A stretch of DNA of 64,000 nucleotides from Pseudo-nitzschia pungens. Its lineage: Eukaryota > Bacillariophyta > Bacillariophyceae > Bacillariales > Bacillariaceae. The notes below the pieces were generated by a model. It was given only the letters and a program-made list of their open reading frames with translations. It was not told the DNA's origin and did not search any database. Where the stretch lies: contig CM074758.1 of the NCBI GenBank assembly GCA_037355855.1, positions 7,475,001 through 7,539,000 of the forward strand. Reading direction: 5' to 3'. This document shows positions 228-54,223 of the stretch, piece by piece (within the stretch, counting starts at the first letter, position 1; each line of letters starts with the position of its first letter). The position numbers were made by a program, and so were the translations under genes.

Positions 228-1664
228 ATGGCGACCAAGGGAACCAAACTGAAGCCTTTCAACATCACACGGGAGGACTGGCCGGAAGACGCCACCACCG
301 TAAAGATGAATGTAGACAGCGAACAGGTTGGAATCGCATTCAGCGACTACCTGAAGGTCCTCAGTGGTACTGAAAGACCAGAACTCTTCCTCATCTGGAA
401 GAGAGACTTTGACCAGAAAATTGCTGGCAATGACAAACTCCACGGAGACCAGAAACTGGACGTCCTACAGAGAATCCTCTCTGGGGAAGCACTAGCACTT
501 GTCCAGCAGACTCTCACTCGGACCTACTTGGCCGAACCGACCCACAAGGTCCACCACACCAGACGCGTCCAGAAAAAGATCCAGGAAATCGAGAAACGGG
601 ACCAAGCAAACATCCTACTATCAATGGGGCAAGACGCCACCGAAACTCCCACGGGAGCCTCCAAGGAGAAGGCAAAGGAGAAATCTCCAAACGCCGACAA
701 AACCGACACAGCCACGGCGAGATCGGACAAAGACCCGGAGACCGACAACCTCGAGTCACCAATCCCAAAGAAAAAGGTCGCAAGCGCCCTCACCCAGTAC
801 TACCAATCCCAGGAGTACAGGAAGGATGTCATGGAAGAATGCATGCATGTCCTCAAGCTCAAAATCTTTGGCAATGACCAAAACGGCAAGCGCTCGTACA
901 TTGTCCTCCGCAGATTCATGCGAGGCATGCGAGTGGAACTCAAATATGGCATCAGAGCCTGGGCCAATCGAATGGCCGAGCTCCAAAGCTACCTCCCCGA
1001 ATGTCTCCGGGAGTGTGGCAGTGACCAAGTGGAAACACCAACCAGTTTCACCCAAGGAGAACTGAAGGAAATACTGGATTCCGACATGACCCACTCCCAA
1101 CGCAAAAAGTTGGAACACATTGGATGGGACCTCTACACCCAATCCTTTAACACCACTATCGACAAGCTCGAAAATTTGGAAATCACCATCCGGAAGGAGG
1201 CAATAATGCAACAGCGCATCACCGACCTTGAAAAACAGAATGGCGTCACCAAGAAGACCCCCAAGGCCGCCTCTGGGGGAGGAAACCGCCACGGGAAGTC
1301 CCCCGGCAAAAAGAAGCGACCTGTGGAAGGCAGCAACAAGCAGCTATGCAAGACCTGTGGCAAGGTCCATGCCGGCAAATGCTGGAAACTAACCGGTGGT
1401 CCCTCCAAGAAGGGAAAGTTTGACCGGGAAATCATCAACTTGCTCAAGGAGCATTTTGTGGCAAAAGAAGACTCAGACAACGAGCAACATTCCAAACCCC
1501 ACTGGGGAAGGAACCTATCGAACCACGAGTACTCCTACGTACTGGCCACGGCCCAAGCTGACCACGACATTTCTGATGACGAGATCGACATCTCCGAACG
1601 AGAACTCAAAGAGTACAGAAGAAAGTACAGAAAGACCTTTAAAAAGAAAGGATCCCACAACTGA
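228..1664 (+). CDS. Gag of Gypsy-type LTR retrotransposon G0
   Basis: 478-codon ORF that starts at an ATG in a good context (caccATGG) and ends in TGA directly before pol. It should form the virus-like particle and bind the element RNA. The middle is helical and charged. Near residues 375-386 there is a short zinc-knuckle-like motif (CKTC, then H, then C; spacing C-x2-C-x3-H-x3-C, shorter than the usual retroviral knuckle), followed by a basic stretch. Downstream pol is in the same frame, so Gag and Gag-Pol could come from one reading frame by passing the UGA. No internal stop or frameshift is visible, so the gene looks intact. Family assignment rests on its position before a clear Gypsy pol; gag itself is not a sequence I recognise beyond the knuckle. 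Confidence 0.85.
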   Translation: MATKGTKLKPFNITREDWPEDATTVKMNVDSEQVGIAFSDYLKVLSGTERPELFLIWKRDFDQKIAGNDKLHGDQKLDVLQRILSGEALALVQQTLTRTYLAEPTHKVHHTRRVQKKIQEIEKRDQANILLSMGQDATETPTGASKEKAKEKSPNADKTDTATARSDKDPETDNLESPIPKKKVASALTQYYQSQEYRKDVMEECMHVLKLKIFGNDQNGKRSYIVLRRFMRGMRVELKYGIRAWANRMAELQSYLPECLRECGSDQVETPTSFTQGELKEILDSDMTHSQRKKLEHIGWDLYTQSFNTTIDKLENLEITIRKEAIMQQRITDLEKQNGVTKKTPKAASGGGNRHGKSPGKKKRPVEGSNKQLCKTCGKVHAGKCWKLTGGPSKKGKFDREIINLLKEHFVAKEDSDNEQHSKPHWGRNLSNHEYSYVLATAQADHDISDDEIDISERELKEYRRKYRKTFKKKGSHN

Positions 1665-1678
1665 ATGGTTGATACCAT
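1662..1678 (+). promoter_or_regulatory. gag-UGA-pol junction of G0 with adjacent hairpin
   Basis: The gag stop TGA (1662-1664) is followed without a gap by pol in the same frame (both start coordinates are divisible by 3). The bases right after it, ATGGT-TGAT-ACCAT (1665-1678), form a perfect 5-bp stem with a 4-nt loop. UGA readthrough is one reading. Stop-start reinitiation (UGAAUG) is the other, because an ATG follows directly. Confidence 0.6.
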
Positions 1679-4600
1679 CCACACCGGACCCCGCATCATC
1701 AACAGATTTGCGGACATCTGTGTGGAGGTATTGGACCACAAGGGAAGGGGGAGGATGCTCCGGGGTCTATTAGACTCTGGTTGCTCCAAATCCATCATAC
1801 TAAGGCAATTTGTCGACCGAAGTCAACTAACGAACCGAGACCAAAGATCTATCACCTATAATACCTATGGGGGCAAGTTCAGAACCAGGTCTGCGGCTTC
1901 AGTGGGACTGAGGTTAATAGAATTTTCAAACTCCAAGACCATCAAGTGGACCTTCCAAGTGGATGAATATCATCACCACGAGGAAGTACCCTATGACATG
2001 ATCATAGGATCCGACCTAATGGCACAGCTGGGACTGGATATAAAATACAGCTCCCGAACTATAGAATGGCAGGGTGACTCCATTCCCATGAAGGGGATGG
2101 GGGAGCTCACGGACCCGGACAAATGTGAGGCAGTATTCTTTGCCAACACACAAAGTCCAATCCTCCAGCAAGAGGAAGAAAGGCAAGCCAAAATCCTGGA
2201 CGCAGACTACTCCAAAGTCGATATAGACGCTATGGTCAACGAGCTAGAGATCACTGCGGAATCCAAGGAAGCCTTAAAGAAAACTCTGAAGAAATTCCCG
2301 ACACTCTTTGGCGGAGGTCTGGGGCTACTGAAGAACATAGAACAGGTATCCATTGAACTCCAACCAGGATTCAAACCGGTCCGACAGCGGTACTACTCTG
2401 TACCCCATGCCTTTGAACAAGCACTTCGCAAGGAGATCACTAGACTCTGCGATATTGGAGTCCTGGAAAAACTCCCCCACGACGACGATTCACCATGGGC
2501 ATCCCCTACCTTTTGTCAACCCAAAAAGACAGGGGACATTCGGGTCCTCACGGATTTCCGGAAAATGAATGCAGCTATCCAAAGGAAGCCTTTCCCACTA
2601 CCACGCATAGGGGAAACAATCCAGAGACTGCAGAAATTCAAGTCCGCTACGGCATTGGACTTATCCCAAGGATATTATACCATCCCCATTTGCAAGGAGA
2701 GCCAAAAGATTTGCTCTACCATTCTACCGTGGGGAAAGTATGCCTACAAGAGGCTGGCAATGGGGATTGCTTGTGCTCCGGATATCTTCCAATCAGTCAT
2801 GATGAACCTGCTTGGTGACCTGGACTATGTCCTAGTCTATATTGATGATATCCTGATCATCCAGAGAGAGGGGGAATCTGAACAGGATCACCTCGACAAG
2901 ATCGACACAGTCCTCCAGAGACTGGATGATGCTGGCTTTCGAGCCAACCTACGAAAATCCTTCTTCATGCAAAAAGAGGTGGAATATCTGGGATTCCTAT
3001 TAACAACAGAGGGCATTCAGCCCCAGCCAAAGAAACTGGAGGCGATGAAGCGCCTGGAAGCCCCAAAGAATACCAAGCAACTCAAGATGTTTCTTGGAAT
3101 GGTAAATTTCTACCGGGACATGTGGAAACGACGCTCCCACATCCTTGCCCCTCTGAACAAGCTAGCAGGGAAAAAGGGCAAAATGAACTGGTACTGGGGT
3201 CCAGCAGAGCAGAAAGCTTTCATGGAGGCAAAAAGGATGCTCGCAGATGAAGCGAAACTCGCATTCCCGGACTTTACAAAACCATTTCATCTCTACTCAG
3301 ACGCCAGCGATAGGCAACTGGGAGCAACTGTGTGCCAAGATGGCAAACCCCTTGGTTTCTATACGAGGAAACTGAACTCAGCGCAGCTCAACTACACTGT
3401 AGGAGAGAAAGAACTCCTCGGAATAGTGGAAGGGCTCAAGGCGTTTGAAGGAATCCTACGAGGACAAGATGTGATTATTCACACAGACCACCTGAACCTA
3501 CTGTATCAGCAGATGCCAACGCAGAGGATGGTCCGGTGGAGACTCCTCATGGAGGAGTTCCATCCGGTAGTCAAGCATGTGGCTGGCAAAGACAATGACG
3601 CAGCAGATGCACTATCACGACTGGACATCACTGATGACCCAGCAGATACAGTGGAATGGCTACCACCAAATAAGCCCCTCACCTACGGGGATGAGGAAGA
3701 GCACCTCCGGCAACTCCTATTCCCACTTGGAGAAGAGTCGGCGGAAGAATTCCAGGGCAATAGTGCATTCCCACTTGCTCCGGATATGATCCAGTTCTAC
3801 CAACAAAAGGACACGGGAATCACGAGTGCTCTGGAAAAAGACAAACGACTGACTACCAAAATGGTGGAAGGTTACAGTCTAATCCACAAGGAAGGAAAAA
3901 TCCTGATCCCGGACAAACTCAAAGATAGAGTCATGGAATGGTACCACAGCATGCTGGTCCATCCCGGAGAAAAGAGAATGGAACAGAGCATCCGCTCCGT
4001 GTTCACCTGGAGAGGTCTACGAAAGGACGTCCAGAACCTCTGTCAACACTGCCACACGTGCCAGATGTTCAAAAAGAGTGGCCGGAAGAAGTATGGACTA
4101 CTACCGGAGAAAGCAGCTGAGGTTACCAAATGGCAAAGGGTCAATGTGGACCTCTGGGGACCTGCAACTGTCCACAATAAAAATGGTAAAGACTACCACA
4201 TCCATGTTCTCACCATGGTGGACCCAGTAACCGGATGGTTTGAATTGGCCCATCTAAAGGACTCACCAAATGCAGCAGAAACTCAACGTTTGCTAGACAG
4301 TACCTGGCTAGCAAGGTATCCGCGCCCAAAGGAAATTGGCTTTGATGGCGGGAGTCAGTTCAAAGCAGAGTTCCAAGAGCTCTGTGACAACATGGGGATG
4401 AAAAGAAAACCCAGTGGCGCTTGGAACCCACAATCCAACTCAGTGCTGGAAAGGATCCATCAGGTCCTGAAGGACTGTCTACTGTCCTTCAACTTGGAAC
4501 AAAGGGATCTCCACGAGAAGGATCCTTTTGAGGAATTCACTACCAAGGCAGCATATGCGATTCGCAGCGCCATCCACACCACTCTGGGGTATTCCCCAGC

Positions 4601-4937
4601 GCAACTGGTGTTTGGAAGGGACATGTTCATGCCCGTGAATTTCCCAGTGGATTGGGAAGCAATCCAAGCAAGGAAACAAAAGAGTATCCACAAGAGTAAT
4701 ATCCGGGAGAATCAGAAGAGGATTCCCCATGTCTATAAGGAAGGAGACTATGTCACCCTGGAAAGGAAGGGCATTATTCCGAAACTATCCTTCCCACAAC
4801 AAGGACCTTACAAGGTGCTCAAGGCCCATGACAATGGAACTGTGACTATTGAAACTGCTCCCTTTGTAACCGACCGGGTTAATATTAGGAGAGTCCATCC
4901 CTATTATTGCAGGGATAGCACTAAACTGGAGAAGTAA
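1665..4937 (+). CDS. Pol of Gypsy-type LTR retrotransposon G0 (PR-RT-RH-IN)
   Basis: 1,090-codon intact ORF with the Gypsy domain order. Aspartic protease motif LLDSGCSKS near residue 36. Reverse transcriptase from about 200 with YIDDI near 391. RNase H begins with LYSDASDRQLGA near 543. Integrase has a zinc-binding region (LVHPG, then CQHCHTC near 760-790), first catalytic Asp in NVDLWGP near 828, second in FDGGSQFK near 894 and Glu in VLERIHQ near 929. The C-terminus (FPQQGPYKVLK, then VNIRRVHPYY) matches the GPY/F module. Integrase after RT and RNase H is what separates Gypsy from Copia. Enzymes of this kind copy element RNA into DNA and insert it in the genome. The stop is TAA, unlike the UGA at the gag end. 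Nothing is missing in the catalytic motifs, so the element could have been active recently. Confidence 0.93.
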   Translation: MVDTIHTGPRIINRFADICVEVLDHKGRGRMLRGLLDSGCSKSIILRQFVDRSQLTNRDQRSITYNTYGGKFRTRSAASVGLRLIEFSNSKTIKWTFQVDEYHHHEEVPYDMIIGSDLMAQLGLDIKYSSRTIEWQGDSIPMKGMGELTDPDKCEAVFFANTQSPILQQEEERQAKILDADYSKVDIDAMVNELEITAESKEALKKTLKKFPTLFGGGLGLLKNIEQVSIELQPGFKPVRQRYYSVPHAFEQALRKEITRLCDIGVLEKLPHDDDSPWASPTFCQPKKTGDIRVLTDFRKMNAAIQRKPFPLPRIGETIQRLQKFKSATALDLSQGYYTIPICKESQKICSTILPWGKYAYKRLAMGIACAPDIFQSVMMNLLGDLDYVLVYIDDILIIQREGESEQDHLDKIDTVLQRLDDAGFRANLRKSFFMQKEVEYLGFLLTTEGIQPQPKKLEAMKRLEAPKNTKQLKMFLGMVNFYRDMWKRRSHILAPLNKLAGKKGKMNWYWGPAEQKAFMEAKRMLADEAKLAFPDFTKPFHLYSDASDRQLGATVCQDGKPLGFYTRKLNSAQLNYTVGEKELLGIVEGLKAFEGILRGQDVIIHTDHLNLLYQQMPTQRMVRWRLLMEEFHPVVKHVAGKDNDAADALSRLDITDDPADTVEWLPPNKPLTYGDEEEHLRQLLFPLGEESAEEFQGNSAFPLAPDMIQFYQQKDTGITSALEKDKRLTTKMVEGYSLIHKEGKILIPDKLKDRVMEWYHSMLVHPGEKRMEQSIRSVFTWRGLRKDVQNLCQHCHTCQMFKKSGRKKYGLLPEKAAEVTKWQRVNVDLWGPATVHNKNGKDYHIHVLTMVDPVTGWFELAHLKDSPNAAETQRLLDSTWLARYPRPKEIGFDGGSQFKAEFQELCDNMGMKRKPSGAWNPQSNSVLERIHQVLKDCLLSFNLEQRDLHEKDPFEEFTTKAAYAIRSAIHTTLGYSPAQLVFGRDMFMPVNFPVDWEAIQARKQKSIHKSNIRENQKRIPHVYKEGDYVTLERKGIIPKLSFPQQGPYKVLKAHDNGTVTIETAPFVTDRVNIRRVHPYYCRDSTKLEK

Positions 4938-5367: not shown

Positions 5368-6266
5368 TGTGTTGATATCCGCTCGTCAGCGGTCTTCGGG
5401 GAACTAATCGTAGAACTTAATCGTCTTATACTGTGTACTGGAAATAGGCGAAAGCCTTAACAATAATAACGCGTACATCCCTGGCAAAGGGTGAGACTAC
5501 AGCGGGCTGTCCAAGGTCTTATTGCATACACTTAGTTACTACAAGGTACTTCCCTAGAGGTACATCGGAATCGATCGAAAGGGAGGGCATGATAGGTTTC
5601 TATTTTAGAGTATAAAAGAAAGAGTGAAAAAAGGGAGCTGAGCCAAAGCGCTCAGCTCTGTATCGTGACAGCGCTCCGATAACTCGTATAATAACAGAGC
5701 TCTGTAGCTCTGGTACTGTATTCTACGGGTAGCGTATCGGAGTATCGCTTAATTAGATCGAATCGTGCGCTAGCGCTAGCTCGCTTATGCTAGCGCGTTG
5801 GGTAACTGTTTGGGCCGGGTATCCGATCATGGTACATATTATACACCAATGACCTGACCCCGGCGGTAGCATCATATCTTAGCATTGGTATCATGGTAGG
5901 TTAGCATCTTTCAGTATCTCGTAGCCTTAGCAACCCTAACCCTGTAGCATTTAGCTACACCCTGAAAAGGTGCTTTACTCGGGGTACGTACGATTGGTAC
6001 AAATCGTACGCGGCGACCCTAGTAAACTCTGCTAGCATCCATACTAAACAGGATAGGTCTGCTGCTAAGCCTGCTGCTAAGCCTGTTGCTAAGCCTGTTG
6101 CTAAGCCTGTTGCTGAGCTTGTATGCTAGCAATTAGCGCACAGCTCTAGCACTCAGCTCAGCACCTGTTAGTCAGTTACTGGGTGTTGCTGACTGTAGAC
6201 CCAGTAGCCCTTCTACACAGGAGCCTTGCTAGCACAGATCATAGCACCACCATGAATATCTTCATA
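5368..6266 (-). repeat. 3' LTR of Copia B
   Basis: Same sequence as 14,430-15,328. In sense (minus) orientation it starts TATGAAGATATTC and ends GATATCAACACA. It holds a 12-bp tandem repeat (GCTAAGCCTGTT type, 6,062-6,115), an inverted repeat around 5,990-6,012 (GTACGATT and AATCGTAC), a two-unit CCCTAA stretch near 5,934-5,942, and a TATAAAAG on the plus strand at 5,611-5,618, antisense to the element. Confidence 0.92.
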
Positions 6267-6869: not shown

Positions 6870-9800
6870 TTACCACATGCATCGAGCGCAGTGTTCTTTC
6901 AAAGCTGGACCATTCAATAGCTTGGTGAATAAGTCGGCAATATTGGTCTCACCAGGCTCCTTTGCAATTCGAATTGTTCCAGCAGCAATAGACTCGCGCG
7001 CCTTGTGGTATGCGACGCTGTTGTGCTTCTTGTTGCAAGGGCTCTCTGGTCTGGTAGTATTTTTGACAACAGACTCATTGTCACAGTACACATTCGTAGG
7101 ACCTTCAATAGGAACGCCCATCATCCGGAGCTTGTATCTGAGCCCTTCAATCAGTTCAATGGCAATTCGGAGTGCAACTATCTCAGAACCAAAGGTTGAG
7201 GTCTCGACAGTGGTTTGCCTTTTGCTGAACCACAGGATTGGAGCCCTGTTCACAAAGATGATGATTCCGGTATGGGATCTTCTTGTTGCTTTGCATCCGG
7301 CATGATCGGCGTCAACAAAACAGCTCATAATAACTGCTTTTCCAAGCGCTTCGGGGGCATCTGGTGGCAACACCTCCTTGGCATCTGGATAAAACTCGCT
7401 CCAGTCGCAGTTGGGAAATCTGGATTCATCCACATCAGGACGCGTCTCGTCAAATACTAACTTGGATCGTGCATGCGCCTTGAGATAGGCAAACATGTGC
7501 AATACTTGGTTCAAATGCCCTGTTCGCGCTTGTGCTAGATATCTAGACATAAGAGATACAGGCATGACCAAATCCAGTCTCCCAAGTTCGCACAACCACC
7601 TCAAGACACCAATCAGGCCCTGGTAGTAGTTCTGCTTACTTGGATCCAGTTCGGCGGTTACATCAACTTCTGGACGATAATCGGATGTCAACGGGGTAGA
7701 CACCTTGTTCGGAAGGTGCTTGTAACCATACTGCTCGGTGCCAAGCTCCTTCTCTACTGCGTCGATGGCTTTCTTGGCATATTTCTCGGAGGACATCGCC
7801 CACTTGGGAATTGGATCGTCTTCGACCACATGCGAATGGACATCAGCGCCCAGATACAGGGTTGGAACTTCTATAGTCCCGTCCTTCAGCGTGAAGCGCT
7901 GCTCGATACTTTCCAACTGCCGTCGGGGGTCCTCACTGCAACAGATGATATCGTCGACGTATGCAATCAGGTAGGCCCAGTACCTAGAGCCGTCCTTTCG
8001 TGTCTCCACTCGCATATGAACGTCAGGATCAGCTTTACAGGGTTGATATCCTAGCGTTCGTAGGTGCTTGGTCAAATAGGATCGGAACGACGCGCCTGCA
8101 ACAGGAAGTCCATACAGTGCCCGAACGATCTTACATACCTGACCTACCAAATGCTGGGGGAAACCATCTTCAGCCCGTGCAACTAAATAGTACTTCTTCT
8201 TGATCGGCGCTGTAAGATATGCGTTCTGTATGTCCGCAGACAGCACATCCAAATTGTTCAGCGCTGCCAACAGGAAGAAGATACGGACTGAATCTCTGCT
8301 TGGAACACTGCTGAAGGTATGTTCCTTAGCTGTGGCTTGTACCTTGTGGCCATCGGCGACAAGCCGTGCTTTCCTTGTGAGAGACCCCAACTTCACGTCA
8401 AAGATCATGTGCGTCGTGATCTTGCTGAATCCTTCGGCCTTCAGACCTTCGACGGTGTAGCTGGAGTCAAACTCGAACGCCATCTCGTTGTTTCTCATCT
8501 CCTTCGCAATCGCCTTCTCCCAATAGTCCGTTCCCGTCTTTCGGTCGATGGCAAGAGCTTCAGGGATAGAATGTGGTAGCTCCACTCCGAACTTGTGCGT
8601 CCTATCCCAGTACTTGTTTCGCTTGGTGGCCTTGAGGATTCGCTTCTTCCTTCGTAGTACGTGGTGGATCCACCATCGAAATGCTGGCTGATCCGAGATC
8701 TTGGCAGATATGGCATACTCTGCGGTCTGTACAGGAAAGGACTCTTTCAGATCGCTCAACTTACACCAGGATTCGGTTCCGTCTTTCCAACTGACGAGCA
8801 ATCGCCATCCCTTCGTTGTAGGCTTGGGGACTTTGCGACCATACTTGTTGGTGATCGTCGCATCTTGCTTCCTAACGGCAGATCCGTCCTTCTCGTGATC
8901 AATGATCTCGTCCAACAGAGAAAACATGCGTCCGTCGTCGTCGATCTCGCTGTACATACTCTCAGCAACAATATTGGCGGTGTACTGCTCGACGGAACCA
9001 TCTGGAAACTGCAGATCATACATTCTGGTATCAAGGATAGGGTTATCATTCCTCTTGCCAATCGGATTGCCATTAAGATCAGCAGAACGATTCTTCACAA
9101 CACACCGTAGTCGTTCATCGCCCTTCTGGATCATGACATTATTACCAATATACTCATCATAGTCATCCCCATCAGGTATGAGGTCGTCGATATCTGGAAT
9201 AGAGGCTTCAGGCTCGGCGAGCTCCCACCGTTCTTGGTGACCTTCAAATAACTCAGCAGGGGGATCAGGGTACGTAGCTTGGAACTTTGCGTCGTTATCC
9301 TCAACCTTGTCCCCGATCTTGGATTCCACTGCTTGGTCAAATGAGTCCATATAGCGCTTGACGTCATGGGAACGCCATTCTTCTTCAGTAACAGCACGGA
9401 CTGTGTTAGTGCTTACCGGCATGGCCGCCTCGTTCAGGATCCAGTGGCAGTCTCCGCCTCCGAATCGGTCACCGCACGGGCCAAGCCATCGTCCCAGCTT
9501 CTCGGTCCCATCAGAGAGATCAACCCAATAGACGAAATCATACCATTCATGGGCTTGGTACAGAGATATGTCAGGCATGTACCCATGTACAATTTCGAAC
9601 GGCGTTCGACCCATCATCGTAGGATCACTGGAAGCCGTGCGCTGTCGGATGGCAGCAACGAGCTCTCCGCAGAAAGCCCACAGGCGCTTGGGGGATCGCT
9701 TCCGAGCCGTCTTCTTACGTATACTTCTGCTGATATGGCCGATGCTGAGCTCCGCGCGATTCTGGAAGGGACATCTTGGCTGGATGAAAGTCTGGTGGAT

Positions 9801-11417
9801 ATGGTTTTTGCTGACGACCTTATTCCATGGAGTCTTGTAAGTACCAGGGGCGCCTTGCTCTCGAGCGCCATCAGATATCAAATGCTCGGGGATGCCGACG
9901 TCGTGGATGAAAATCTTCAGGCCTTCATATGCTTGCTTCTTGCCCTGTATAGGTATGAACTCGTCGTAGCCCTTACCATTACTGAAAACTTGGGCGGCTG
10001 AATCTTGTCGCATGATGCTCGGGACCTTTGCCATCCAGGTGTCGGTGTACCATTTGCCAGCCGCGATGCGCTTGTTTCTGAAGCTCTGCGTTGGCAATCG
10101 GCGGACAAGGGGATGCATAGGGTTGCGGAAGCCTTTCTGGGTCGTGACTCGAAGGGTATCCGCAGCCTTTCTCGGAGATACATCCCAAATCTTGGACAGA
10201 CGGTCGGAGTCGATCTTGCAGTATCGTTCGGTGTCAATCGTCGGACCCCACTTGGCTCGTCTGGCGATAGTGTCGAGCTCTGGGTCGACTGGTTCGACTG
10301 CATCGTCGTCCCATCGTACATGCTTGTAGACGGATGACAAGCAGACGGGAGAACTGTGACGGGGATCCAATTCGAAGCGCTCGCGTCCATCGGTGTAGGC
10401 GCGCTCGTACAGAGGGGTATGCAGGGCGTTGACTGTAAGACTTGGAACTGTATCCTCGTCTACATCGTCCCCGCAAGTCTTCAGGGGATCGCCCGAATGA
10501 AAAAGAGAAGATAGCCGCGCATCCAGACGCGAGTCGGATGCGATCGAACATGGGGTCAGATCACGGCGGGTACAGAGTTGCTGAAGGCTCCGCAGCTTGT
10601 ACTTCTCATAGCAATCATGCTGTGGCAGGATCAGCTCATCGCTCCGAAGAGGATCATCGTACAAATGGGGACTGAAGTTGGACCGTGTTTCGACGGGCTC
10701 CAACTTGCGCTTGTTGGACTTCTTGGACTGCTTCGTGGTCGGCGCGGACGCATGGGGCGTCCCCGCGCGAAGGACAGACACCGTAGGATTCAACGGATGG
10801 GATCCGTCGATGGCTTCTTCGGCTTGCTCGAACTTCTTGCTCTTCGGATCCCAAGGGAAGTCTCGGGTAGCAACGACATGATTGCATGTAGCCATTTCAT
10901 GCTTGGTTGGCTTGCGGGAAGGGAAATAGGACACGACCCCATCAAGCAGGAGCTTGATATCGAGGGTGTGGCCCGCATGGGGATCTTCAGGATCGGTATT
11001 GTCAATATGGATGGAGTGACTGGACTGCTCATCATACTGACGGGGCGTTTCACTGACACGATTGGGATGGCAGTCCCGTATCTGATTCGGGCAAATCAAG
11101 CTGTGGGACAACTTGTCGCCAAAATACAGGGCTTCGTGGAAATAAATCAACCAAACTTTCCCGTCGGTATCTGTGTAGGCCGTAACACAGGTCCCAATAG
11201 GAATGTTCTTGATAGGCTCGAGCTCAGGCGAAAAAGGATGAACATCGACGTGGCTGACGACTTGGTCTTCAAGCAAGATCATATTGGAACCGGCGGCAGT
11301 CGTATCAGCGTGGCTGTCCAGCTCGCACTGTCCCTCAGGACTCGGGCGCGCGCGCGGGAGATCCATCTGGTACAACAGCCGGCCAACCTTACTTAATTTC
11401 GGGCACCGGCCGTCGTT
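6870..11417 (-). CDS. Pol of Copia element B (PR-IN-RT-RH)
   Basis: Open for about 1,515 codons from the codon after the gag UGA to a TAA. There is no ATG at its beginning (first ATG is in YQMDL), as expected if it is made as a Gag-Pol fusion. Counting from position 11,375: protease motif CELDSHADT near residue 20; integrase with Asp in YTDTWMAKV near 443, Asp in ISDGAREQ near 500 and Glu in NRAELSIGH near 543; reverse transcriptase with QNAYLTAPIKKKYYLVA and the YVDDI active site near 1,140; RNase H with FVDADHAG near 1,350, YCDNES near 1,433 and ADLFTKLL near the end. Integrase before reverse transcriptase defines Copia. The protein copies and integrates the element. No stop or frameshift is seen. 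Confidence 0.95.
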   Translation of the reverse strand, partial: NDGRCPKLSKVGRLLYQMDLPRARPSPEGQCELDSHADTTAAGSNMILLEDQVVSHVDVHPFSPELEPIKNIPIGTCVTAYTDTDGKVWLIYFHEALYFGDKLSHSLICPNQIRDCHPNRVSETPRQYDEQSSHSIHIDNTDPEDPHAGHTLDIKLLLDGVVSYFPSRKPTKHEMATCNHVVATRDFPWDPKSKKFEQAEEAIDGSHPLNPTVSVLRAGTPHASAPTTKQSKKSNKRKLEPVETRSNFSPHLYDDPLRSDELILPQHDCYEKYKLRSLQQLCTRRDLTPCSIASDSRLDARLSSLFHSGDPLKTCGDDVDEDTVPSLTVNALHTPLYERAYTDGRERFELDPRHSSPVCLSSVYKHVRWDDDAVEPVDPELDTIARRAKWGPTIDTERYCKIDSDRLSKIWDVSPRKAADTLRVTTQKGFRNPMHPLVRRLPTQSFRNKRIAAGKWYTDTWMAKVPSIMRQDSAAQVFSNGKGYDEFIPIQGKKQAYEGLKIFIHDVGIPEHLISDGAREQGAPGTYKTPWNKVVSKNHIHQTFIQPRCPFQNRAELSIGHISRSIRKKTARKRSPKRLWAFCGELVAAIRQRTASSDPTMMGRTPFEIVHGYMPDISLYQAHEWYDFVYWVDLSDGTEKLGRWLGPCGDRFGGGDCHWILNEAAMPVSTNTVRAVTEEEWRSHDVKRYMDSFDQAVESKIGDKVEDNDAKFQATYPDPPAELFEGHQERWELAEPEASIPDIDDLIPDGDDYDEYIGNNVMIQKGDERLRCVVKNRSADLNGNPIGKRNDNPILDTRMYDLQFPDGSVEQYTANIVAESMYSEIDDDGRMFSLLDEIIDHEKDGSAVRKQDATITNKYGRKVPKPTTKGWRLLVSWKDGTESWCKLSDLKESFPVQTAEYAISAKISDQPAFRWWIHHVLRRKKRILKATKRNKYWDRTHKFGVELPHSIPEALAIDRKTGTDYWEKAIAKEMRNNEMAFEFDSSYTVEGLKAEGFSKITTHMIFDVKLGSLTRKARLVADGHKVQATAKEHTFSSVPSRDSVRIFFLLAALNNLDVLSADIQNAYLTAPIKKKYYLVARAEDGFPQHLVGQVCKIVRALYGLPVAGASFRSYLTKHLRTLGYQPCKADPDVHMRVETRKDGSRYWAYLIAYVDDIICCSEDPRRQLESIEQRFTLKDGTIEVPTLYLGADVHSHVVEDDPIPKWAMSSEKYAKKAIDAVEKELGTEQYGYKHLPNKVSTPLTSDYRPEVDVTAELDPSKQNYYQGLIGVLRWLCELGRLDLVMPVSLMSRYLAQARTGHLNQVLHMFAYLKAHARSKLVFDETRPDVDESRFPNCDWSEFYPDAKEVLPPDAPEALGKAVIMSCFVDADHAGCKATRRSHTGIIIFVNRAPILWFSKRQTTVETSTFGSEIVALRIAIELIEGLRYKLRMMGVPIEGPTNVYCDNESVVKNTTRPESPCNKKHNSVAYHKARESIAAGTIRIAKEPGETNIADLFTKLLNGPALKEHCARCMW

Positions 11418-13424: not shown

Positions 13425-14429
13425 GGTTAACTTGACTTGCTCTGAGTAACTAACTTGCTTCAGTTTCCAAATTCTTTTGTGGTGGGGACTGTTTCCATCC
13501 AATTTGTCGATCGAAAGGTCCTGTATCGATTGTTCTGTATCAATTTCGTGTCGACGTTCGAAAGAAAAGGTATCAAGAAAAGGTATCACGTCAGCGTTTC
13601 CGTGTCAACAGTTTCGTGCCGATGATGTCTTCGTGTCAACAGTTTCGTGCCGACGAAAGGTATCCACATCGATGGTTCCGATTCGATGGTTGGATGGTTG
13701 GTTACCAAAAGAGAAGAATTCTTTCGGTCTTTCTGCTCTGGACCAATCGATTTGATTTTGGAACATGACTGGTCCCAGGGATCTATCGGTTTTGAGATAT
13801 GGCTGATCTCAGAGGCATGACTGGCCTCAGAGACATGACTGGTCTCGCATTGGTTTTGAGATATGACTGATCTCAGGGTTCTGATTCCAAGTTCCCTTGG
13901 CTAAAATCAAAAAAAATCGATGGTATGGCAGATTTGAGGTTGTCTGCGCCTCATTATTCTGATGGATGGTCCTGACGTCATGTCATTGTTCTGCTGGATA
14001 TGACCGTTCTCACTGGGAACGTGCGTGGCGTTCTGTCTTCCACGAAGGTTCCATCCGTTGCGAACGTCCCCTTGAATCCTGTAAAAATAACAGGGAATCA
14101 TGGACGCTGCTTTCTCCACGTCCTGCTTGCTCCTTCCCCACCGGACTGAGCCTCCATGGTGCCACCATGATGCTCAGCTACCGTACTCTGTATCAATAGG
14201 CCCCAGAGGTGGATGTATGGGCTCCGGTCGGTTTGCGCCTCTGTCTGCTGGGGAAGGGCTCCCCATTAACATCAGGGATCTCACGATGTCAGCTGCTGGT
14301 CCAGTTACAGCTGAGGTTTTACATCCAAGTGTAGGCATGGATGCCAGTGGTGATCAACCAACTGGGTTTCTTCACGCGCTCTAGCCGGCGTCCCGGTTCG
14401 TAGTGGGTCGAGCGGTGGGTCTGATAAAC
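13425..14429 (-). other. 5' leader of Copia B with short repeats and a CRE palindrome
   Basis: Untranslated leader between the 5' LTR and gag. It holds repeated words (tttcgtgtcaacagtttcgtgcc near 13,600-13,650; catgactggtctcag-like units at 13,760-13,880), a TGACGTCA palindrome at 13,973-13,980, and, next to the LTR, GTTTATCAGACCCACCGC (14,412-14,429, minus strand), which is conserved in elements A and C and is the likely primer-binding region. Confidence 0.6.
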
Positions 14430-15328
14430 TGTGTTGATATCCGCTCGTCAGCGGTCTTCGGGGAACTAATCGTAGAACTTAATCGTCTTATACTGTGTAC
14501 TGGAAATAGGCGAAAGCCTTAACAATAATAACGCGTACATCCCTGGCAAAGGGTGAGACTACAGCGGGCTGTCCAAGGTCTTATTGCATACACTTAGTTA
14601 CTACAAGGTACTTCCCTAGAGGTACATCGGAATCGATCGAAAGGGAGGGCATGATAGGTTTCTATTTTAGAGTATAAAAGAAAGAGTGAAAAAAGGGAGC
14701 TGAGCCAAAGCGCTCAGCTCTGTATCGTGACAGCGCTCCGATAACTCGTATAATAACAGAGCTCTGTAGCTCTGGTACTGTATTCTACGGGTAGCGTATC
14801 GGAGTATCGCTTAATTAGATCGAATCGTGCGCTAGCGCTAGCTCGCTTATGCTAGCGCGTTGGGTAACTGTTTGGGCCGGGTATCCGATCATGGTACATA
14901 TTATACACCAATGACCTGACCCCGGCGGTAGCATCATATCTTAGCATTGGTATCATGGTAGGTTAGCATCTTTCAGTATCTCGTAGCCTTAGCAACCCTA
15001 ACCCTGTAGCATTTAGCTACACCCTGAAAAGGTGCTTTACTCGGGGTACGTACGATTGGTACAAATCGTACGCGGCGACCCTAGTAAACTCTGCTAGCAT
15101 CCATACTAAACAGGATAGGTCTGCTGCTAAGCCTGCTGCTAAGCCTGTTGCTAAGCCTGTTGCTAAGCCTGTTGCTGAGCTTGTATGCTAGCAATTAGCG
15201 CACAGCTCTAGCACTCAGCTCAGCACCTGTTAGTCAGTTACTGGGTGTTGCTGACTGTAGACCCAGTAGCCCTTCTACACAGGAGCCTTGCTAGCACAGA
15301 TCATAGCACCACCATGAATATCTTCATA
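14430..15328 (-). repeat. 5' LTR of Copia B
   Basis: Partner of the LTR at 5,368-6,266, same length and apparently identical. It carries the promoter and the transcript ends. On its right edge it meets the TGGG duplication and then the older Copia A reverse transcriptase. Confidence 0.92.
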
Positions 15329-21394: not shown

Positions 21395-21418
21395 GGGTCG
21401 CGAACCAGTTTTCGGACG
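21395..21418 (-). repeat. Right terminal inverted repeat of T1
   Basis: Inverted copy of 15,849-15,872, ending ...GTTTTCGGACG, followed by TT and then resumed Copia A pol. Confidence 0.88.
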
Positions 21419-46075: not shown

Positions 46076-49000
46076 TTAAGCCGACCAGTGACTCATGGAA
46101 CAATCCGAGTCATCTGATTGGCTCAATTCGATATTCGGGGATTCATTCGTCGTCGACTCCGACTGATTCGATTGACTTACTGTGGATTCATTCGATGGTT
46201 CCCGATACGGCGTAAGCTTTCGGATGTTCACTGTTTCCACTACTGAGGGAGCTCTTTGCAACTTCACAGTACCATTTGGATTCACTTGTGTGATTGGAAA
46301 GGGACCAATCTTCCTGGGTTGTAACTTGTCCGGATCTGGCTCTTGGATCCATACCTTATCATTGACTTGGAAGGTATGGTTGATTCTTTTGGCATTATCT
46401 CTGAGTAGATTCTTGTTAATCCCCTGTTGTCGAAGCTGTTGCAGCGCTAACAGATTGGAGGTTAGTGGTAGGTCAATCAGCATGTCCCGATTGAATACTA
46501 GGGAACCCGGTGATGCCTGTAAAGCAGCATTGACAGCACACCGGGAGGCATGCATGCATGTTGCCAAGGCGTTGTCCATGAGCTGACTAGCTCTGGTGTT
46601 GACTTGAGGAGGATTAACATGCACTAAAACTCTGAGGATATCAGCGACTGTATGATAGACTCTTTCACAGATGGCACTTGATTGGGGATTCTTCACTGTG
46701 GTAGGGATGGACTGAATCCCATATTGCTTAAGTGTAGTCTGGAACTCAGCCCCTAGGAATTCACCACCATTGTCATGGATGCATCTGATAGGTCTTGGAT
46801 ACCTTGAGAGCCAACAGTTCTTGAATTGGTCTGATATGTGCTGGGAGGACTTGTCTCAGATTCTGATAATCTCCAGAAGGTTAGTCACCGGATCAATACA
46901 GGTTAGGGCCTTGAAGTTGTAGTTCTTGCCTTGAGCTGTAATCTTCCAGGAACCTATAAGGTCCACATGTATCTCGTTGAATGGAGCTAGCGGGGCTTCT
47001 TTCGGTGGTAACTTGCCATATTTGGAGTGTTGGTTTTTGTATTTAATGCAGCTGTCGGGGCAGATGTAAGTCTTGCAAAGATTGGATAGATTGTCAATGT
47101 AGAATCTTGCGGAGATAGTTTGATATAGCCTGGTGGATCCACAATGACCCAACAGAAGATGGTACCATTTGATGGTATCATTGGAAAGCGAGCTTGGTAT
47201 GTATATGCGCCAGTTGTCTGGGTTTGATTGGTTGGCATAGCAGAGGATATTATTGCCTTCTAATTCTTGGTAGAAGAAGGCTTTGGATTGCATCTTGAAC
47301 TTGATCGTGGGATCTTTCTGCTGATGAAGATAAATATTGGAATAGTTCACCGGGCATTCCATATTTGGTAGGTTGACTAGGCACTCATTGTTCAGCAAAT
47401 AGGATTGGAGTTCGTGATCTGCGTCATTGCATAAGTGCTGGAATAGGGTCGGGAACTCTGTTAGAAACAGTTCTTCATCTTGTTTGGGGACTTCAAGGTT
47501 CAAGAAATCGATTAAGGTGCCCTTTGAGAGGGCTTTCTTCCCTTCAGTAGGTGGATCCATCCGGGGGAGTCTGGAGAAGGCGTCAGCAAGAACATTCTTC
47601 TTGCCTTCAACATAGGTGAGGTTGATACCAAATTCTTCAAGGAATAGTCTCCATCGGAGGACTCGTTGGACCGATAGGGTTCTGAAGGTAAGGTTCTTAT
47701 GGTCGGTGTATACATTGATAACACCACCAAGTAACATTTTGCGGTACTCTTTGCAGCAGAGTACTATTGCTAGGAGTTCTTTCTCCATGGTAGTATAATT
47801 CTTCTGGGCATCAGATAGTTTCTTGGACCAATATGCAATCGGCTTGCCATCTTGTATTATGGCAGCACCGAGCTGGAGGTCTGAGGCATCAGTGTACAGT
47901 TCAAAGGGCTTGTTTAGATCTGGATAGGTGTTCAGCGCATCTGCTGCCACCATGGCTTTCATCTCTTGGAAGGCTTTATCTTGAGCAGGTCCCCAAGTGA
48001 AAGCTGAAGGAGCTTTCCTTTGTTTGGCTTTGATGGTAGCTGCTTGAGGAGCTTGCTTCTTTGGGGTTCCGGTGATGTCAAAGAGAGGAGCTAGGACATG
48101 AGATCGCCGGGACCACATGTCCCTGTAGTATCCTACTGCTCCTAGGAATGACTTGACTTGGGTCACAGTTCTTGGCCGATCCATGTGTAGGATGGCTTCA
48201 ATCTTTTTGCGCCATGGCTTAACTGCAGTAGGAGTCATCCAATAGCCTAGGAAGTCAGTCTCTTGTACAGCCCAATCACATTTGAGTGGGTTGCACTTGA
48301 GACCATTCTGGTTAAGTCGGTCTAGGATCTTGTCAATGGTCTTCATGTGTAGATCAAAAGAGCCATTGGTCCAGATGCCAATATCATCAATATAAACAGT
48401 GCAGTCGGTGTCTTGTAGGATATCTTCCATTAGTTGCTGTGCAACATCTGGCGAGACTTTGACACCCATTGGTAGTCTTTGGTACTCATAGCAACCATAA
48501 GGGGTGACTATGGTACAGAGCTTCTTGCTTGCGTCATCCAGTTCAAAGCAGTAGTATTGCATGGACAAGTCAATTTTGGTGAAGTGAGTGTACTTGCCCC
48601 TCTTGTTCATGATATCCTGTATCCGGGGAATTGGATAAGGACGTCTCTCAAGGAGTTCATTGAGTTCCCTGAAGTCTGATACCCATCGTACCCTGTTGTC
48701 TTTCTTTGGTACTATGAAGGTTGGAAACGCCCATTCGGCCGGTCCAGTGCAACGCTTGAGTACTCCATCATTACAAAGATTCTGGAGCTCCCTTTTGAAT
48801 AGGTGTTCTCTTTTGTATGCAACTGGATAAGGCTTCTTGTGTATGGGCTTGGATCCGGGCTTCAGTCTTAGAGAGATCTTCTTGTGAGGGTACTTGCCAA
48901 GTTCTCCATTGAAGACATTTGGATACTTGTTTAGTATTGCTTGGAACTGCTGCTGCTCTGCTTTGGACATGTGGCTCTGTTGTTGTGCGACTGTAGATGG

Positions 49001-50056
49001 ATCTGTTTCTTGGTAGGCTTGGTCGAGAATCACCTTGGACTTGTATGGATTGGCAAAGGAGAGATCATCAGCAAAGAGTTCATCATCTTCTAGTTCTTCC
49101 ATGAGCATGGTGTAGTCGGACTCATGGTATAAGGACGTATCCTTCATAGGAATGGTTCGGTCCATCCACTGAACTGCTCCGGTATTGAATAGGAGATTGA
49201 TCTTTGCTAGGTGGAGGAAGTCTCTGCCTAGTATCAAATCATATTTGCAGTCAGGGGAATGGAAGAGCCTTGCCTCTTGTCGATCAATGTTGTAGTTGCC
49301 AAACTCCTGTAGTTTGATGTTCTTCATGATGATATACTCTGTTGTATCAAAACTTCCATTCGCTGTGGTGGTTAGGACTTGGTGCTTGCTTCTGATTGGT
49401 ATTGTGCCAAATGGTAGTGCTTGTTTGTTAATTAAAGTTCCGGAGGATCCACTATCTAGTAGTGCTAGTAGTGGGCTTGATTTCATGGGGATGCCTTGTA
49501 TGTACTGTACGTTGGTTAGAAGAATAGGAGCCACGTTGCTCGTATTCTGAATAGGAGCCACGTTGCTCTTATTCGATGCCTGTTCTGCTGTATTTTTAGT
49601 TGTATTTCCAGCAGTCGACAGCAGCGTTAAATAATTTTGCTCCAGCGCACCTCCTTTGGTGTAGTCTTTGGAGTTTTGGGTGTTGCAATAGAGGTTTTTT
49701 GCTGTACCCGTGGACCAATTCCTTGCTAGGGACAAGATTGGTCTATTTATTGCTGCTGTACTATCTTTCGCGTCTGTACCCTTGGATCGATTCGATTGTT
49801 TTCGATTCGGATCCATGTTCGTATCGTTCGTTCCGGAGAATCGAACTGTTTTTGTTGCTGCTTTTGCAGTCTTCGAGCGCTCAACAGGACTCCATCCTGT
49901 AGGTTCCTTCCCCTTTTTCTCCGGGAGATCTCCTCCTTGCGTCATCCCAGTCAGCTGTGCTGGAATGGCATCAAGGGCCTGTGGCGCCGGAGGCAAGGTG
50001 ATTGCTGGTTTTGGTGGACCATTGGGTCTCTGTTTGGTGGAGAATTGCCTTTGCAA
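46076..50056 (-). CDS. Pol of Gypsy G1 (one internal stop)
   Basis: In frame with gag behind its UGA. Protease LLALLDSGSSGTLI near residue 200, reverse transcriptase VYIDDIGIW near 555, RNase H LYTDASDLQLGA near 720, integrase zinc region HLLLGHCGSTRLYQ to CPDSCIKYK near 965-1,005. A TGA at 46,856-46,858 interrupts the integrase just after LLEIIRI, where G3 reads AGG (Arg); two base changes would be needed. The frame then continues through the second catalytic Asp and Glu (SSAICERV) to TAA at 46,076. Except for this stop the gene is complete. Confidence 0.92.
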
Positions 50057-50059: not shown

Positions 50060-51091
50060 TGGGAGCCAAATAAGCTCACCATCGATGCTCCTTTCTGTTC
50101 GGCCTCCATGTTTGGAGTGATACGATTCCCTTGCTGCCTTCATGTGAGCTTGGAACGACTCATTGCTGCCGGAAAGGTCATGAGTGTGTGTATGGAAGGT
50201 CTCAGTGGTGGCGTTGGCTTTGTTGCCGGGCCCCTTGTAGTTCTTTGAGTACCTGTTCTTAGGGCACTTGGACCACTCGTGGTTGTGGCCCTGAATGCGA
50301 CAGGGGTTGGACTTCTTCTTGCCCTTGGGATTGTTCTTCTGGGTCCCAGAGCGCTTCCTGTTGTTGTTGTTAGAACTATTAGAATTGTTGGAACGTCTTC
50401 CAGTATTCTTGTTGTTGTTCTTCTGTTTGCTGAGCCGATCGAGACTGCTCATATGGTCGACCAGGAACTGCGATGTGGTGTTCCGAGTGACCCCTTGGTG
50501 GATGCGTACATAGTCTTCTATCCAGGCATTTGGGTAGCTATGTAGGAGTATGGTGACTTGCTGGAGGTGGTCCAGATTGGTGACATACCCATGGAGTTTG
50601 GTTGTATATTTCATGAGGGTTAGGAGTCGGTCTGTGTGGTCTTTGCAGGTGGACTCCACCTTCTTTTTGCACGCCAGGCTCCGGAGATATATATGCATGA
50701 TGTCCCTGGCGTCTTCGGCATTGCAGTAGAGCTTGATAAAGGCTGCAAATGCTGAATCAAATCCTTGTCTTGTAAGCGGATATAATCTTTGTCCATTCGG
50801 TCGGGTGCTTTGCGTTAGAGATCTCCATTCGGTTTGTGCTTTAACACATAAGCAGCGTCCGAAATAGCGGATGAGCGCTGAGTCCTGTACACCTAGATCT
50901 TCCACTGCGTTTAGAAATGCTTCCTCGGTGTGGAGGAGCTCTTCTAGGCCTCCCTTATCTGTGAAGAGGGGGATCTTGACGCTGTCGGAATGGTCAGCAT
51001 TGTCGTAGATCGAAAGCGTAATTAGCTTCGGCTTGGAGCTGTCGAAGGAGCTCTTGTAAGAGACCGGTGGTTCTCTGTAGATGCCGGCCAT
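50057..51091 (-). CDS. Gag of Gypsy G1
   Basis: 344 residues from ATG 51,091 (MAGIYREPPVSYKSS) to TGA. The first 210 residues look helical and capsid-like. An Asn/Lys-rich basic linker follows (NNNKNTGRRSNNSNSSNNN), then a C/H cluster (PCRIQGHNHEWSKCP) that resembles a reduced zinc knuckle with C, H, H and C ligands. It should package the element RNA. The stop is UGA and pol continues in the same frame. Confidence 0.88.
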   Translation of the reverse strand: MAGIYREPPVSYKSSFDSSKPKLITLSIYDNADHSDSVKIPLFTDKGGLEELLHTEEAFLNAVEDLGVQDSALIRYFGRCLCVKAQTEWRSLTQSTRPNGQRLYPLTRQGFDSAFAAFIKLYCNAEDARDIMHIYLRSLACKKKVESTCKDHTDRLLTLMKYTTKLHGYVTNLDHLQQVTILLHSYPNAWIEDYVRIHQGVTRNTTSQFLVDHMSSLDRLSKQKNNNKNTGRRSNNSNSSNNNNRKRSGTQKNNPKGKKKSNPCRIQGHNHEWSKCPKNRYSKNYKGPGNKANATTETFHTHTHDLSGSNESFQAHMKAARESYHSKHGGRTERSIDGELIWLP

Positions 51092-51234
51092 GGTTGGAGG
51101 AGTTAGCTGAAGAGTTTCTCTTGTCAGGGGTACAAGTTGCCTCTATTGTTGAGGCTTTTGTTGTTTCGGTTTTCTTGAGAGTTCAGTACTGAATTCTACT
51201 ACTGTTCCTACGTGAAAGCGGACAGTAATTACTG

Positions 51235-51555: not shown

Positions 51556-54220
51556 GTCTGTTGTATTGGGTAGGTTGACTAGGCACTCGTTGTTCAGCAG
51601 ACAAGCTTGTAATTCATGGTCTGCGTCATTGCACAAGTGCTGGAATAGGTTCGGGAACTCTGCTAAAAACAGTTCTTCGTCTTGCTTGGGGACTTCAAGT
51701 TTCAAAAAATCAATAAGAGTGCCCTTACCAAGGGCTTCTTTCTTCCCCACAGTAGGTGGATCCATCCTGGGAAGCCTGGAGAAGGCATCAGCAAGAACGT
51801 TCTTCTTGCCTTCCACATAAGTGAGGTTGACACCAAATTCTTCTAGGAAGAGTCGCCATCGGAGGACGCGTTTGACTGAGATGGTGCGAAAGGTAAGATT
51901 CTTGTGGTCAGTGTATACATTGATTACACCACCAAGGAGCATCTTCCTGTACTCTTTGCAACAGAGTACAATGGCTAGGAGTTCTTTTTCCATAGTCGTG
52001 TAGTTCTTCTGAGCATCAGATAGTTTCTTGGACCAATATGCAATGGGCTTGTCATCCTGTATTATGGCAGCACCCAATTGCCGGTCTGAGGCATCAGTGT
52101 ACAGTTCAAAGGGCTTGTTGAGATCCGGATAGGTGTTCAGCGCATCTGCTGCCACCATTGCTTTCATTTCTTGAAAGGCTTTATCTTGAGCAGGTCCCCA
52201 AGTAAAAGCTGAAGGAGCTTTTCTTCATTTGCCTTTGATGGCAGCTGCTTGGGGAGTCTTCTTGGGCATACCAGTTATATCAAATAGGGGAGCTAGGACA
52301 TGAGATCGCCGGGACCACATGTCCCTGTAGTATCCTACTGCTCCTAGAAACGACTTGACTTGAGTCACAGTTCTTGGTCGATCCATGTGGAGGATGACTT
52401 CAATTTTCTTTCTCCAAGGCTTAACTGCAGTAGGAGTCATCCAATATCCAAGGAAGTGCAGCCCAATCACACTTGAGTGGGTTGCACTTGAGGCCATTCT
52501 GGTTGAGTCTGTCGAGGATCTTGTCAATGGTCTTCATGTGGAGATCAAATGATCCATTAGTCCAGACGCCAATATCATCAATATAAACAGTGCAACCAGT
52601 GTCTTGTAGAATATCTTCCATTAGTTGCTGGGCAACATCTGGAGAGACTTTGACACCCATTGGTAGTCTTTGGTATTCATAGCAACCATATGGTGTTACT
52701 ATGGTACAGAGCTTCTTGCTTGCATCATCCAGTTCAAAGCAGTAGTATTGCATGGGCAAGTCAATCTTGGTGAAGTGGGTATACTTGCCACGCTTGTTCA
52801 TGATATCTTGTATCCTTGGTATGGGGTATGGTCTTCTCTCGAGGAGTTCATTGAGTTCTCTAAAGTCTGATACCCATCGGACCCTGTTGTCTTTCTTTGG
52901 GACTATGAAGGTTGGGAATGCCCATTCAGCTGGTCCAGTACAACGTTTGAGGACTCCATCATTACAAAGATTCTGGAGCTCCCTTTTGAATAGGTCTTCT
53001 CTTTTGTATGCAACTGGATAAGGCTTCTTGTGTATGGGCTTGGATCCGGGCTTCAGTCTTAGAGAGATTTTCTTGTGTGGATATTTCCCTAGTTCTCCAT
53101 TAAAGACATTCGGATACTTGTTTAGTATTGCTTGGAACTGCTGCTGCTCTGCTCTGGACATGTGGCTCTGTTGTTGTGCGACTGTAGATGGATCTGTTTC
53201 TTGGTAGGCTCGGTCTAATATTAGCTTGGACTTGTATGGATTCGCGAAGGATAGTTCATCAGCAAAGAGTTCATCATCTTCTAGTTCTTCCATGAGCATG
53301 GTATGGTTGTCATGGTATAAGGAGGTGTCCTTCATAGGAATGGTTCGATCCATCCACTGAACTGCTCCTTCTTTGAATAGGAGATTGATCTGTGCCAGGT
53401 GGAGGAAGTCTCTGCCTAGTATCAAATCATATTTGCAGTCAGGGGAATGGAAGAGCCTTGCCTCTTGTCGATCAATGTTGTAGTTGCCAAACTCCTGTAG
53501 TTTGATGTTCTTCATGATGATATACTCTGTTGTATCAAAACTTCCATTCGCTGTGGTGGTTAGGACTTGGTGCTTGCTTCTGATTGGTATTGTGCCAAAT
53601 GGTAGTGCTCGTTTGTTAATTAAAGTTCCGGAGGATCCACTATCTAGTAGTGCTAGTAGTGGTCTTGATTTGAGAGGGATGCCTTGTATGTACTGTACTG
53701 TGGTTAGAACAATAGGAGCCACGTTGCTCTTATTGGATGCCTGTTCTACTGGATTTCCAGTAGTCGACAGCAGTTTCAAATAATTTTGCTCCAGCACACC
53801 TCCTTCGGTGTAGTCTTTGGAGTTTCCGGGATTGCAATAGAGATTTTTTGTTGCACCGGTAGACCAGTTCCTTGCCAGGGACAAGGTTGGTCCATTTGTT
53901 ACTGCTGTCTTATTCGAATCGATAGTAATCGATAATGCGTCTGTACCCTTGGATCGATTCGGTATCCAATTCGAATCCGTGTCCGTATTGCTCTTTGCTG
54001 AGAATCGGACTGTTTTTGTTGTTGCTGCTGTTGCAGTCTTTGCTAAGCGCTCAACAGGACTCCATCCTGTAGGTTCCTTCCCCTCTTTTCCCGGGAGATC
54101 TCCTCCTTGCGTCATCCCAGTCAGCTGTGCTGTACTGGCATCCAGGGCCTGTGGCGCCGGAGGCAAGGTGATTGCTGGTTTTGGTGGACCCTTGGGTCTC
54201 TTGGAGGATTGCTTATGCAA
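51556..54220 (-). pseudogene. Pol of Gypsy G2, protease-RT-RNase H part
   Basis: Very close to G1 pol (LLALLDSGSSGTLI, VYIDDIGVW, LYTDASDRQLGA). Broken by an ~11-bp deletion near 52,458 (just before FLGYWMTPT), by an in-frame TGA at 52,225-52,227 where G1 has CAA, and by the G1 insertion at 51,550. The gene goes on at 45,724. Confidence 0.9.
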
Positions 54221-54223
54221 TCA
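54207..54223 (-). promoter_or_regulatory. gag-UGA-pol junction of G2 with hairpin
   Basis: TGA at 54,221-54,223 followed in frame by TTG. GATTGC (54,217-54,222) pairs perfectly with GCAATC (54,207-54,212) around ATAA. Same arrangement as G1. Confidence 0.6.

Follow-up and report, generated by a model that had tools for sequence, protein, structure and literature searches.

In-frame stop codons between gag and pol suggest programmed readthrough in Gypsy and Copia retrotransposons of the diatom Pseudo-nitzschia pungens

The window analyzed here is the whole of a 64,000-nucleotide stretch of the Pseudo-nitzschia pungens genome (assembly GCA_037355855.1, contig CM074758.1; C1:7475001-7539000), which carries five long terminal repeat (LTR) retrotransposons, or parts of them, of the Gypsy and Copia superfamilies. 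An in-frame UGA was found between gag and pol in each, which confirmed the initial annotation at all five places. Searching of the whole genome (66.9 Mb, 28 contigs) found one in-frame stop splitting gag and pol in five families with UGA and in one Copia group with UAG, and single copies may hold extra stops. From the sequence evidence, it is very probable that these LTR retrotransposons make Gag-Pol by programmed stop-codon readthrough. The features of the window elements, in window positions, are as follows.

222..1661, forward strand: gag frame of G0 (Gypsy), open for 480 codons from stop to stop
1662-1664, forward strand: junction stop UGA of G0, an in-frame TGA with AUG directly after it
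1665..4937, forward strand: pol of G0, 1090 codons, ending in TAA, with Pfam RVT_1, RT_RNaseH, Integrase_H2C2 and rve
1666..1738, forward strand: putative hairpin 3′ of the G0 UGA, main stem 1672-1731, with a 7-nt spacer in the window copy
5368..6266, reverse strand: 3′ LTR of Copia B, 899 bp, 100% the same as 14430-15328
6870..11417, reverse strand: pol of Copia B, 1515 codons, ending in TAA, with RVT_2
11372..11416, reverse strand: putative 12-bp stem-loop of Copia B, beginning 1 nt past the UGA
11418-11420, reverse strand: junction stop UGA of Copia B, an in-frame TGA
11421..13604, reverse strand: gag frame of Copia B, open
14430..15328, reverse strand: 5′ LTR of Copia B, identical to 5368-6266
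21339..24176, reverse strand: pol remnant of Copia A without reverse transcriptase (RT), the frame ending in TAG
24134..24172, reverse strand: Copia A counterpart of the stem, with an 8-bp core, from the A2 alignment (where L110 matches the window copy exactly)
24177-24179, reverse strand: junction stop UGA of Copia A, in the context UGA CUU
24360-24362, reverse strand: second in-frame TGA, in the gag of Copia A
46079..50056, reverse strand: pol frame of G1 (Gypsy), with a TGA break at 46856-46858 in integrase and the terminal TAA at 46076-46078
50057-50059, reverse strand: junction stop UGA of G1, an in-frame TGA
50060..51142, reverse strand: gag frame of G1, open
52421..54220, reverse strand: pol remnant of G2, with Pfam RVT_1; G1 is nested inside G2
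54221-54223, reverse strand: junction stop UGA of G2, an in-frame TGA
54413-54415, reverse strand: in-frame TAG in the gag of G2

By Pfam, the Ty3/Gypsy order of RT, RNase H and integrase was found in the pol of both G0 and G1, with RVP, RVT_1, RT_RNaseH and Integrase_H2C2 detected in G1, and no family was matched by the gag frame of G0 (222..1661). The Ty1/Copia mark, RVT_2, lies at residues 1003-1195 of the 1515 in Copia B pol, and Copia A, having no RT, was placed in Copia by its kinship to Copia B. The five elements described initially stand as junctions but not as independent cases, since Copia A and B are kin and so are G1 and G2, which leaves three families (G0; Copia A/B; G1/G2); the pol of Copia A breaks off short of RT, and G2 is interrupted by the inserted G1. 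Exactly one stop separates the two frames in three of the five, whereas Copia A has the extra gag TGA at 24360-24362 and G2 the gag TAG at 54413-54415. Likewise, the proposed TAA end of the intact pol genes was found in G0 and Copia B but not in G1, whose 1,066-codon frame stops at the integrase TGA (46856-46858); pol-terminal stops as a within-copy control were readable for the window copies only. The paired LTRs are identical in G1 and in Copia B and 98.75% alike in G2, and the insertion of G1 is taken to be recent because its LTRs are identical. This recent copy carries the in-frame TGA in integrase, and several of its listed kin have an open pol of 1,293-1,324 codons. Both flanks of Copia B (5155-5366 and 15329-15848) correspond to neighbouring segments of its pol (8092-8303 and 8301-8817), which suggests that it was inserted in an older related copy.

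Junction-spanning pieces with X at the stop were then searched against the whole genome. For G0 (150 of 758 candidates scored), TGA was found in each row, with a second TGA in two, at 92-100% identity, and for G1/G2 (150 of 862 candidates scored) it was found in every listed row, some having extra stops. For Copia A/B (150 of 293 candidates scored), 138 of the 139 rows covering the junction hold TGA, some again with extra stops, and the 11 of the 150 rows without a stop fall short of the junction; the remaining locus, L108, has only TAA in the aligned frame, and an indel with TGA in the shifted frame. Two further families were C61, placed in Copia, as was the UAG group, by RVT_2 matches, and G68, placed in Gypsy by the RVT_1 matches L002, L003 and L008 only. 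TGA was found in 15 of 15 C61 rows covering the junction (the other 2 of 17 rows do not span it) and in all 13 G68 family rows covering it; the other rows of the G68 search were fragments beyond the junction or distant matches at 31-39% identity, of which three, with a nominal start at residues 92-96, reach the junction and have no stop there.

As row listings alone leave open whether each TGA is the junction, the aligned codons were read in fetched loci. All were TGA: 52 loci at 49 places in G0 (L031, L038 and L059 being places already counted under another name), 30 in Copia A/B and 14 in G1/G2, where the copies fetched were selected from among the rows listed, 15 in C61, and 18 loci at 13 places in G68. 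In total, 121 of 121 distinct places in three Gypsy and two Copia families hold TGA, and no fused junction was found among those read in these families. The loci set aside were L018 and L028 of G0 and L108 of Copia A/B, where the junction is lost, unalignable or, in L108, shifted by the indel, and L017, which has no junction; in 4 of the 15 UAG-group loci and in L109 and L121 of Copia A/B, the stop is displaced from the alignment column by a few codons.

The Copia UAG group (L064, L065 and L069-L081) holds TAG in 15/15 rows, down to 40% protein identity, with 11 of the 15 junctions aligned directly, and brings the junctions read to 136. Four other sampled families have a fused single-frame gag-pol, namely L067 of Gypsy and L062, L063 and L066 of Copia. 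The claim that this host's elements have settled on UGA is therefore contradicted, while the other half of that proposal, readthrough, is retained as the best explanation of the kept stop. No frameshift family was met among the 150 of 1225 RVT_1 and 150 of 376 RVT_2 candidates scored, with one representative taken per frame-length class; the family boundaries are our own, drawn from frame lengths and sequence, and rarer families may be missed.

Since one transition turns UGA into UAA, a mere terminator would be expected to drift in the diverged families. As a control, two-fold codons at conserved residues around the junction were scored for invariance. Invariant were 0/18 in C61, 3/24 in Copia A/B and 8/20 in the UAG group, with the stop fixed in each, while the test was weak in G0 (21/63), G68 (31/58) and G1/G2 (6/8). 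Across the genome, UGA thus appears to be kept more than chance would allow.

In some families, protein-level constraint was observed both upstream and downstream of the stop. In G68, the ratio of nonsynonymous to synonymous diversity (pN/pS) is 0.19 over the 64 codons that follow UGA (upstream 0.10), and no AUG is found there in 11 of 11 distinct rows; in C61, it is 0.41 over the 130 codons that follow UGA (upstream 0.13), and AUG has no constant position across 13 rows. As neither stretch keeps a start codon, both would be best explained by ribosomes arriving from gag. In the C61 copy L061 (from 1792), the first ~40 residues past UGA are hydrophobic and tryptophan-rich, which seems odd for the start of pol.

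Candidate signals 3′ of the stop were identified in five of the six groups, with none in G1/G2, and no motif common to all families was found by eye at the junctions. G68 has UGA-CUA in 18/18 loci (13 places), a context that was also found in one Copia A-like copy (L128) and is not that of G0, G1/G2 or Copia B; UGA-CU is present in 15/21 Copia A-like copies. C61 has UGA-CUG in 9/15 and UGA-CAA or UGA-CAG in 6/15, contexts that fit the published leaky UGA-CU (PMC4207609) and CARNBA (PMC4132726), and its synonymous diversity is lowest at the junction (0.218 vs a mean of 0.678).

In the other three groups, the candidate is a structure. The G0 hairpin of 73 nt has a predicted energy of -33.3 kcal/mol over 75 nt (z -4.85) and ranks first of 155 folded windows by energy, with one window lower in z. 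Its paired cells amount to 96.1% vs 32-48% when the pairing is slid (34 distinct sequences, L018 excluded), and two pairs are changed on both sides; the pairing was matched by 0/500 shuffles and the two-sided changes by 10/500. Synonymous diversity in its 3′ arm is low, 0.020 (codons 20-30) vs a mean of 0.320, with other windows lower. The Copia A/B stem, 12 bp in B and an 8-bp core in A, has 77.3% paired cells vs 14-50% slid (11 distinct sequences) and three pairs changed on both sides, a number reached by 18/500 shuffles; its energy ranks 14 of 222 and 10 of 159 windows, and the junction has the lowest synonymous diversity of 239 columns. The UAG group has UAG-G at the junctions read, followed past a 7-nt spacer by a stem (z -3.52 and -2.68; energy ranks 7 and 23 of 178 windows) with 88.3% paired cells vs 38-57% slid. 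In G1, a conserved block lies ~40 nt past the UGA, with no consistent fold.

Based on these observations, the majority of ribosomes would halt at UGA and release Gag, and in a minority a tRNA would decode the stop, inserting some residue, so that in-frame continuation would yield Gag-Pol at a level on which selection may act through the Gag:Gag-Pol ratio. In most families, the level of readthrough may be raised by the 3′ sequence or RNA structure, the proposed boosters being UGA-CUA in G68, UGA-CU or UGA-CAR in C61, the large hairpin in G0 and the post-stop stem in Copia A/B; the UAG Copia group could use the same route via UAG-G and its stem.

Several points weigh against readthrough or against particular signals. 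Post-stop constraint is weak in Copia A/B (pN/pS 0.60), G1/G2 (0.73) and the UAG group (0.76), and a stop falls within the 130 codons in 4/13 C61 rows. G1/G2 is without a clear signal, the base after UGA being U, C, A or G, and its fold is unremarkable (z -0.38 and -0.24; rank 84 of 141 windows). No fold follows the UGA of G68 (0.0 kcal/mol, rank 77 of 78 windows), that of C61 is ordinary (z -0.43), the Copia A/B windows are no more stable than is usual for their composition (z 0.02 and -0.51), and the Copia A copy, folded alone, has a minimum-energy structure other than the stem. Covariation in the UAG-group stem was matched by 117/500 shuffles (6 sequences), and in G0, G1/G2 and G68 the junction is not lowest in synonymous diversity. 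Further, a 300-nt junction of the gag-UGA-pol element Tca2 gave no readthrough in S. cerevisiae, and its Pol is reported to come from a gag-pol RNA (PMC2194720).

In G0, where the post-stop pN/pS is 0.19 and AUG directly follows the stop, reinitiation is also possible, which counts against readthrough in that family. Gag would end at UGA and translation would restart at the adjoining AUG, with the hairpin pausing ribosomes, to give a Pol without Gag. A hairpin just past a start codon could favour initiation there, and AUG stands directly after UGA in every G0 junction read except one, L022, which has AUU in its place, though this copy may be dead. Termination-reinitiation nevertheless predicts no preference among stops, and the first AUG of the remaining UGA families and of the UAG group is farther off (at a median index of 17 in Copia A/B, 36 in G1/G2 and 66 in G68) or at no fixed place, so that it cannot explain an arrangement common to the families; we consider it improbable.

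Still less probable is the removal of the stop by an intron from a minority of transcripts, like the regulated splicing of Drosophila copia, a published means of setting Gag to Gag-Pol (PMC2194720), because stop identity would then be irrelevant, yet it is fixed within each family over the 136 junctions. That UGA is a sense codon of this host, or encodes selenocysteine at the junction, is very unlikely. In its favour, UGA is a minor terminator in the LHC genes sampled, 19/20 ending in TAA and 1/20 in TGA (20 genes read out of 72 matches, with three near-identical copies, too small a sample for the whole host), and UAA is thus preferred in this gene family. Against it, the one gene ending in TGA indicates that UGA serves as a stop at least once, and inside the 72 LHC-domain matches no TGA was found (2 TAG and 1 TAA were), which agrees with the initial annotation that a general sense codon is unlikely. 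Its other argument, that pol frames are free of UGA, is correct in that G0 and Copia B hold 0 TGA in 3,813 codons (1090+1515+480+728), but this is true by definition of an open frame, and the only point is that such long open frames exist. Moreover, the layout recurs in the UAG group, where no UGA is involved, and window positions 1-6300 gave no match among 4227 Rfam families, presumably including SECIS, at E up to 5. Decay, in which dead copies would have gained UGA by a C-to-T change, has in its favour the extra stops in many copies, including G1, G2 and Copia A of the window, and is refuted as a general account because, within a family, codon and position stay constant among copies with 51-99% protein identity to the query, and because many rows keep long open frames both upstream and downstream of the stop.

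The genome is that of a photosynthetic organism, as its 72 LHC-domain matches show. The better named protein relatives of the elements are from diatoms, namely Fistulifera, Nitzschia inconspicua and the Psemu1 gene models, which we take to be Pseudo-nitzschia, and weaker ones are from plants, insects and one bacterial bin; scanning of viral contigs with the G0 relative P0001 and Copia B pol gave no loci. Database proteins show fused or pol-first frames and not the stop codon, and a pol-first start may reflect the choice of a gene caller or a contig end. In a Gypsy pol tree of 111 rows (13 of 120 database rows dropped as unclear), G0 falls in a supported set of 13 rows, of which the other 12 are all pol-first, and the adjoining set (support 93) holds 18 rows, 17 of them fused. 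A derived gag-pol split in the G0 line is suggested and is put no more strongly because the tree is rooted at the midpoint only. G1 and G68 group close to L067, which is fused, on long branches that were marked unsafe, and pol-first frames account for 90 of the 100 G1 relatives inspected and fused ones for 7, the other 3 lacking a protease match. Copia A and B have pol-first neighbours in the Copia tree and are well separated from C61 and the UAG group, the branches that divide the families being very long. The gag-stop-pol arrangement likely had several origins. A bolder reading, which we hold as tentative and rather doubtful, is that the host favours readthrough, leaky termination at stops other than UAA having allowed several independent adoptions in both superfamilies, each with its own signal.

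Elsewhere in the window, a direct repeat with 181-bp spacing was found at 18549-19782 (six copies registered, with 89-92% similarity to the reference) and an array with 15-bp spacing at 33226-33826 (27 registered copies). On the reverse strand, the region 27849-33326 holds three frames (238, 769 and 851 codons), the shortest with an RVT_1 match of 46.9 bits and the other two with no Pfam match; it is possibly another retroelement. A tRNA scan of the window found none, and Rfam gave no match in it at gathering scores.

Among known systems, Tca2, which we take to be a Copia element, is one element, whereas here the Copia A/B stem appears to covary between subfamilies. Tca2 of Candida albicans has gag-UGA-pol and a possible 3′ pseudoknot (PMC2194720). 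In the Ty3/Gypsy elements Tj1, Tcry1 and Tosmo1-3 of fission yeasts, one in-frame TGA lies in a conserved GAA-TGA-CT; the stop of Tj1 is reported to be essential for transposition, and the related Tf1 and Tf2 are single-frame (PMC10085805). These fission yeast elements, all Gypsy, share one 8-bp context, whereas here the context differs by family, G0 adds a large hairpin, and Copia families carry the stop too. Moloney murine leukemia virus (MuLV) has gag-UAG-pol with an in-frame stop, a short spacer and a 3′ RNA structure (PMC2194720); the UAG Copia group is like it in UAG-G, the 7-nt spacer and a stem, a likeness of stop, spacer and stem alone, MuLV being a retrovirus with a pseudoknot. In a human-cell reporter, UGA-CUA by itself supports readthrough at 1.5% (PMC4132726), and UGA-CUA or UGA-CU is also the context in alphaviruses, OPRL1, LDHB and MDH1 (PMC4132726, PMC4207609), which are replicases or cellular genes, whereas the present cases are LTR retrotransposons. 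For the diatom CoDi and GyDi elements, most of the putative active ones were described as having one or no stop or frameshift between gag and pol, an account that, in the sections consulted, names no particular stop and proposes no readthrough (PMC2806351), and the main text of that paper contains neither "UGA" nor "TGA". No statement of readthrough in a diatom element, nor gag-stop-pol in both superfamilies with UGA and UAG in one genome, was found in the open-licence literature.

The gag-UGA-pol layout is thus already known from Tca2 and from Tj1, Tcry1 and Tosmo1-3, and what is notable here is the number of families, their spread over both superfamilies and the variety of candidate signals. 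Junction stops of this kind do not mark such elements as broken, which is a caution for annotation. With UGA, UAG and fused families in one translation system, stop identity, context and 3′ structure become comparable, and if the host does favour readthrough, a single genome would present a range of natural readthrough signals next to families with a fused frame. Gag-stop-pol readthrough would, if borne out, be extended from fungal elements and vertebrate retroviruses to diatom retroelements of both LTR superfamilies.

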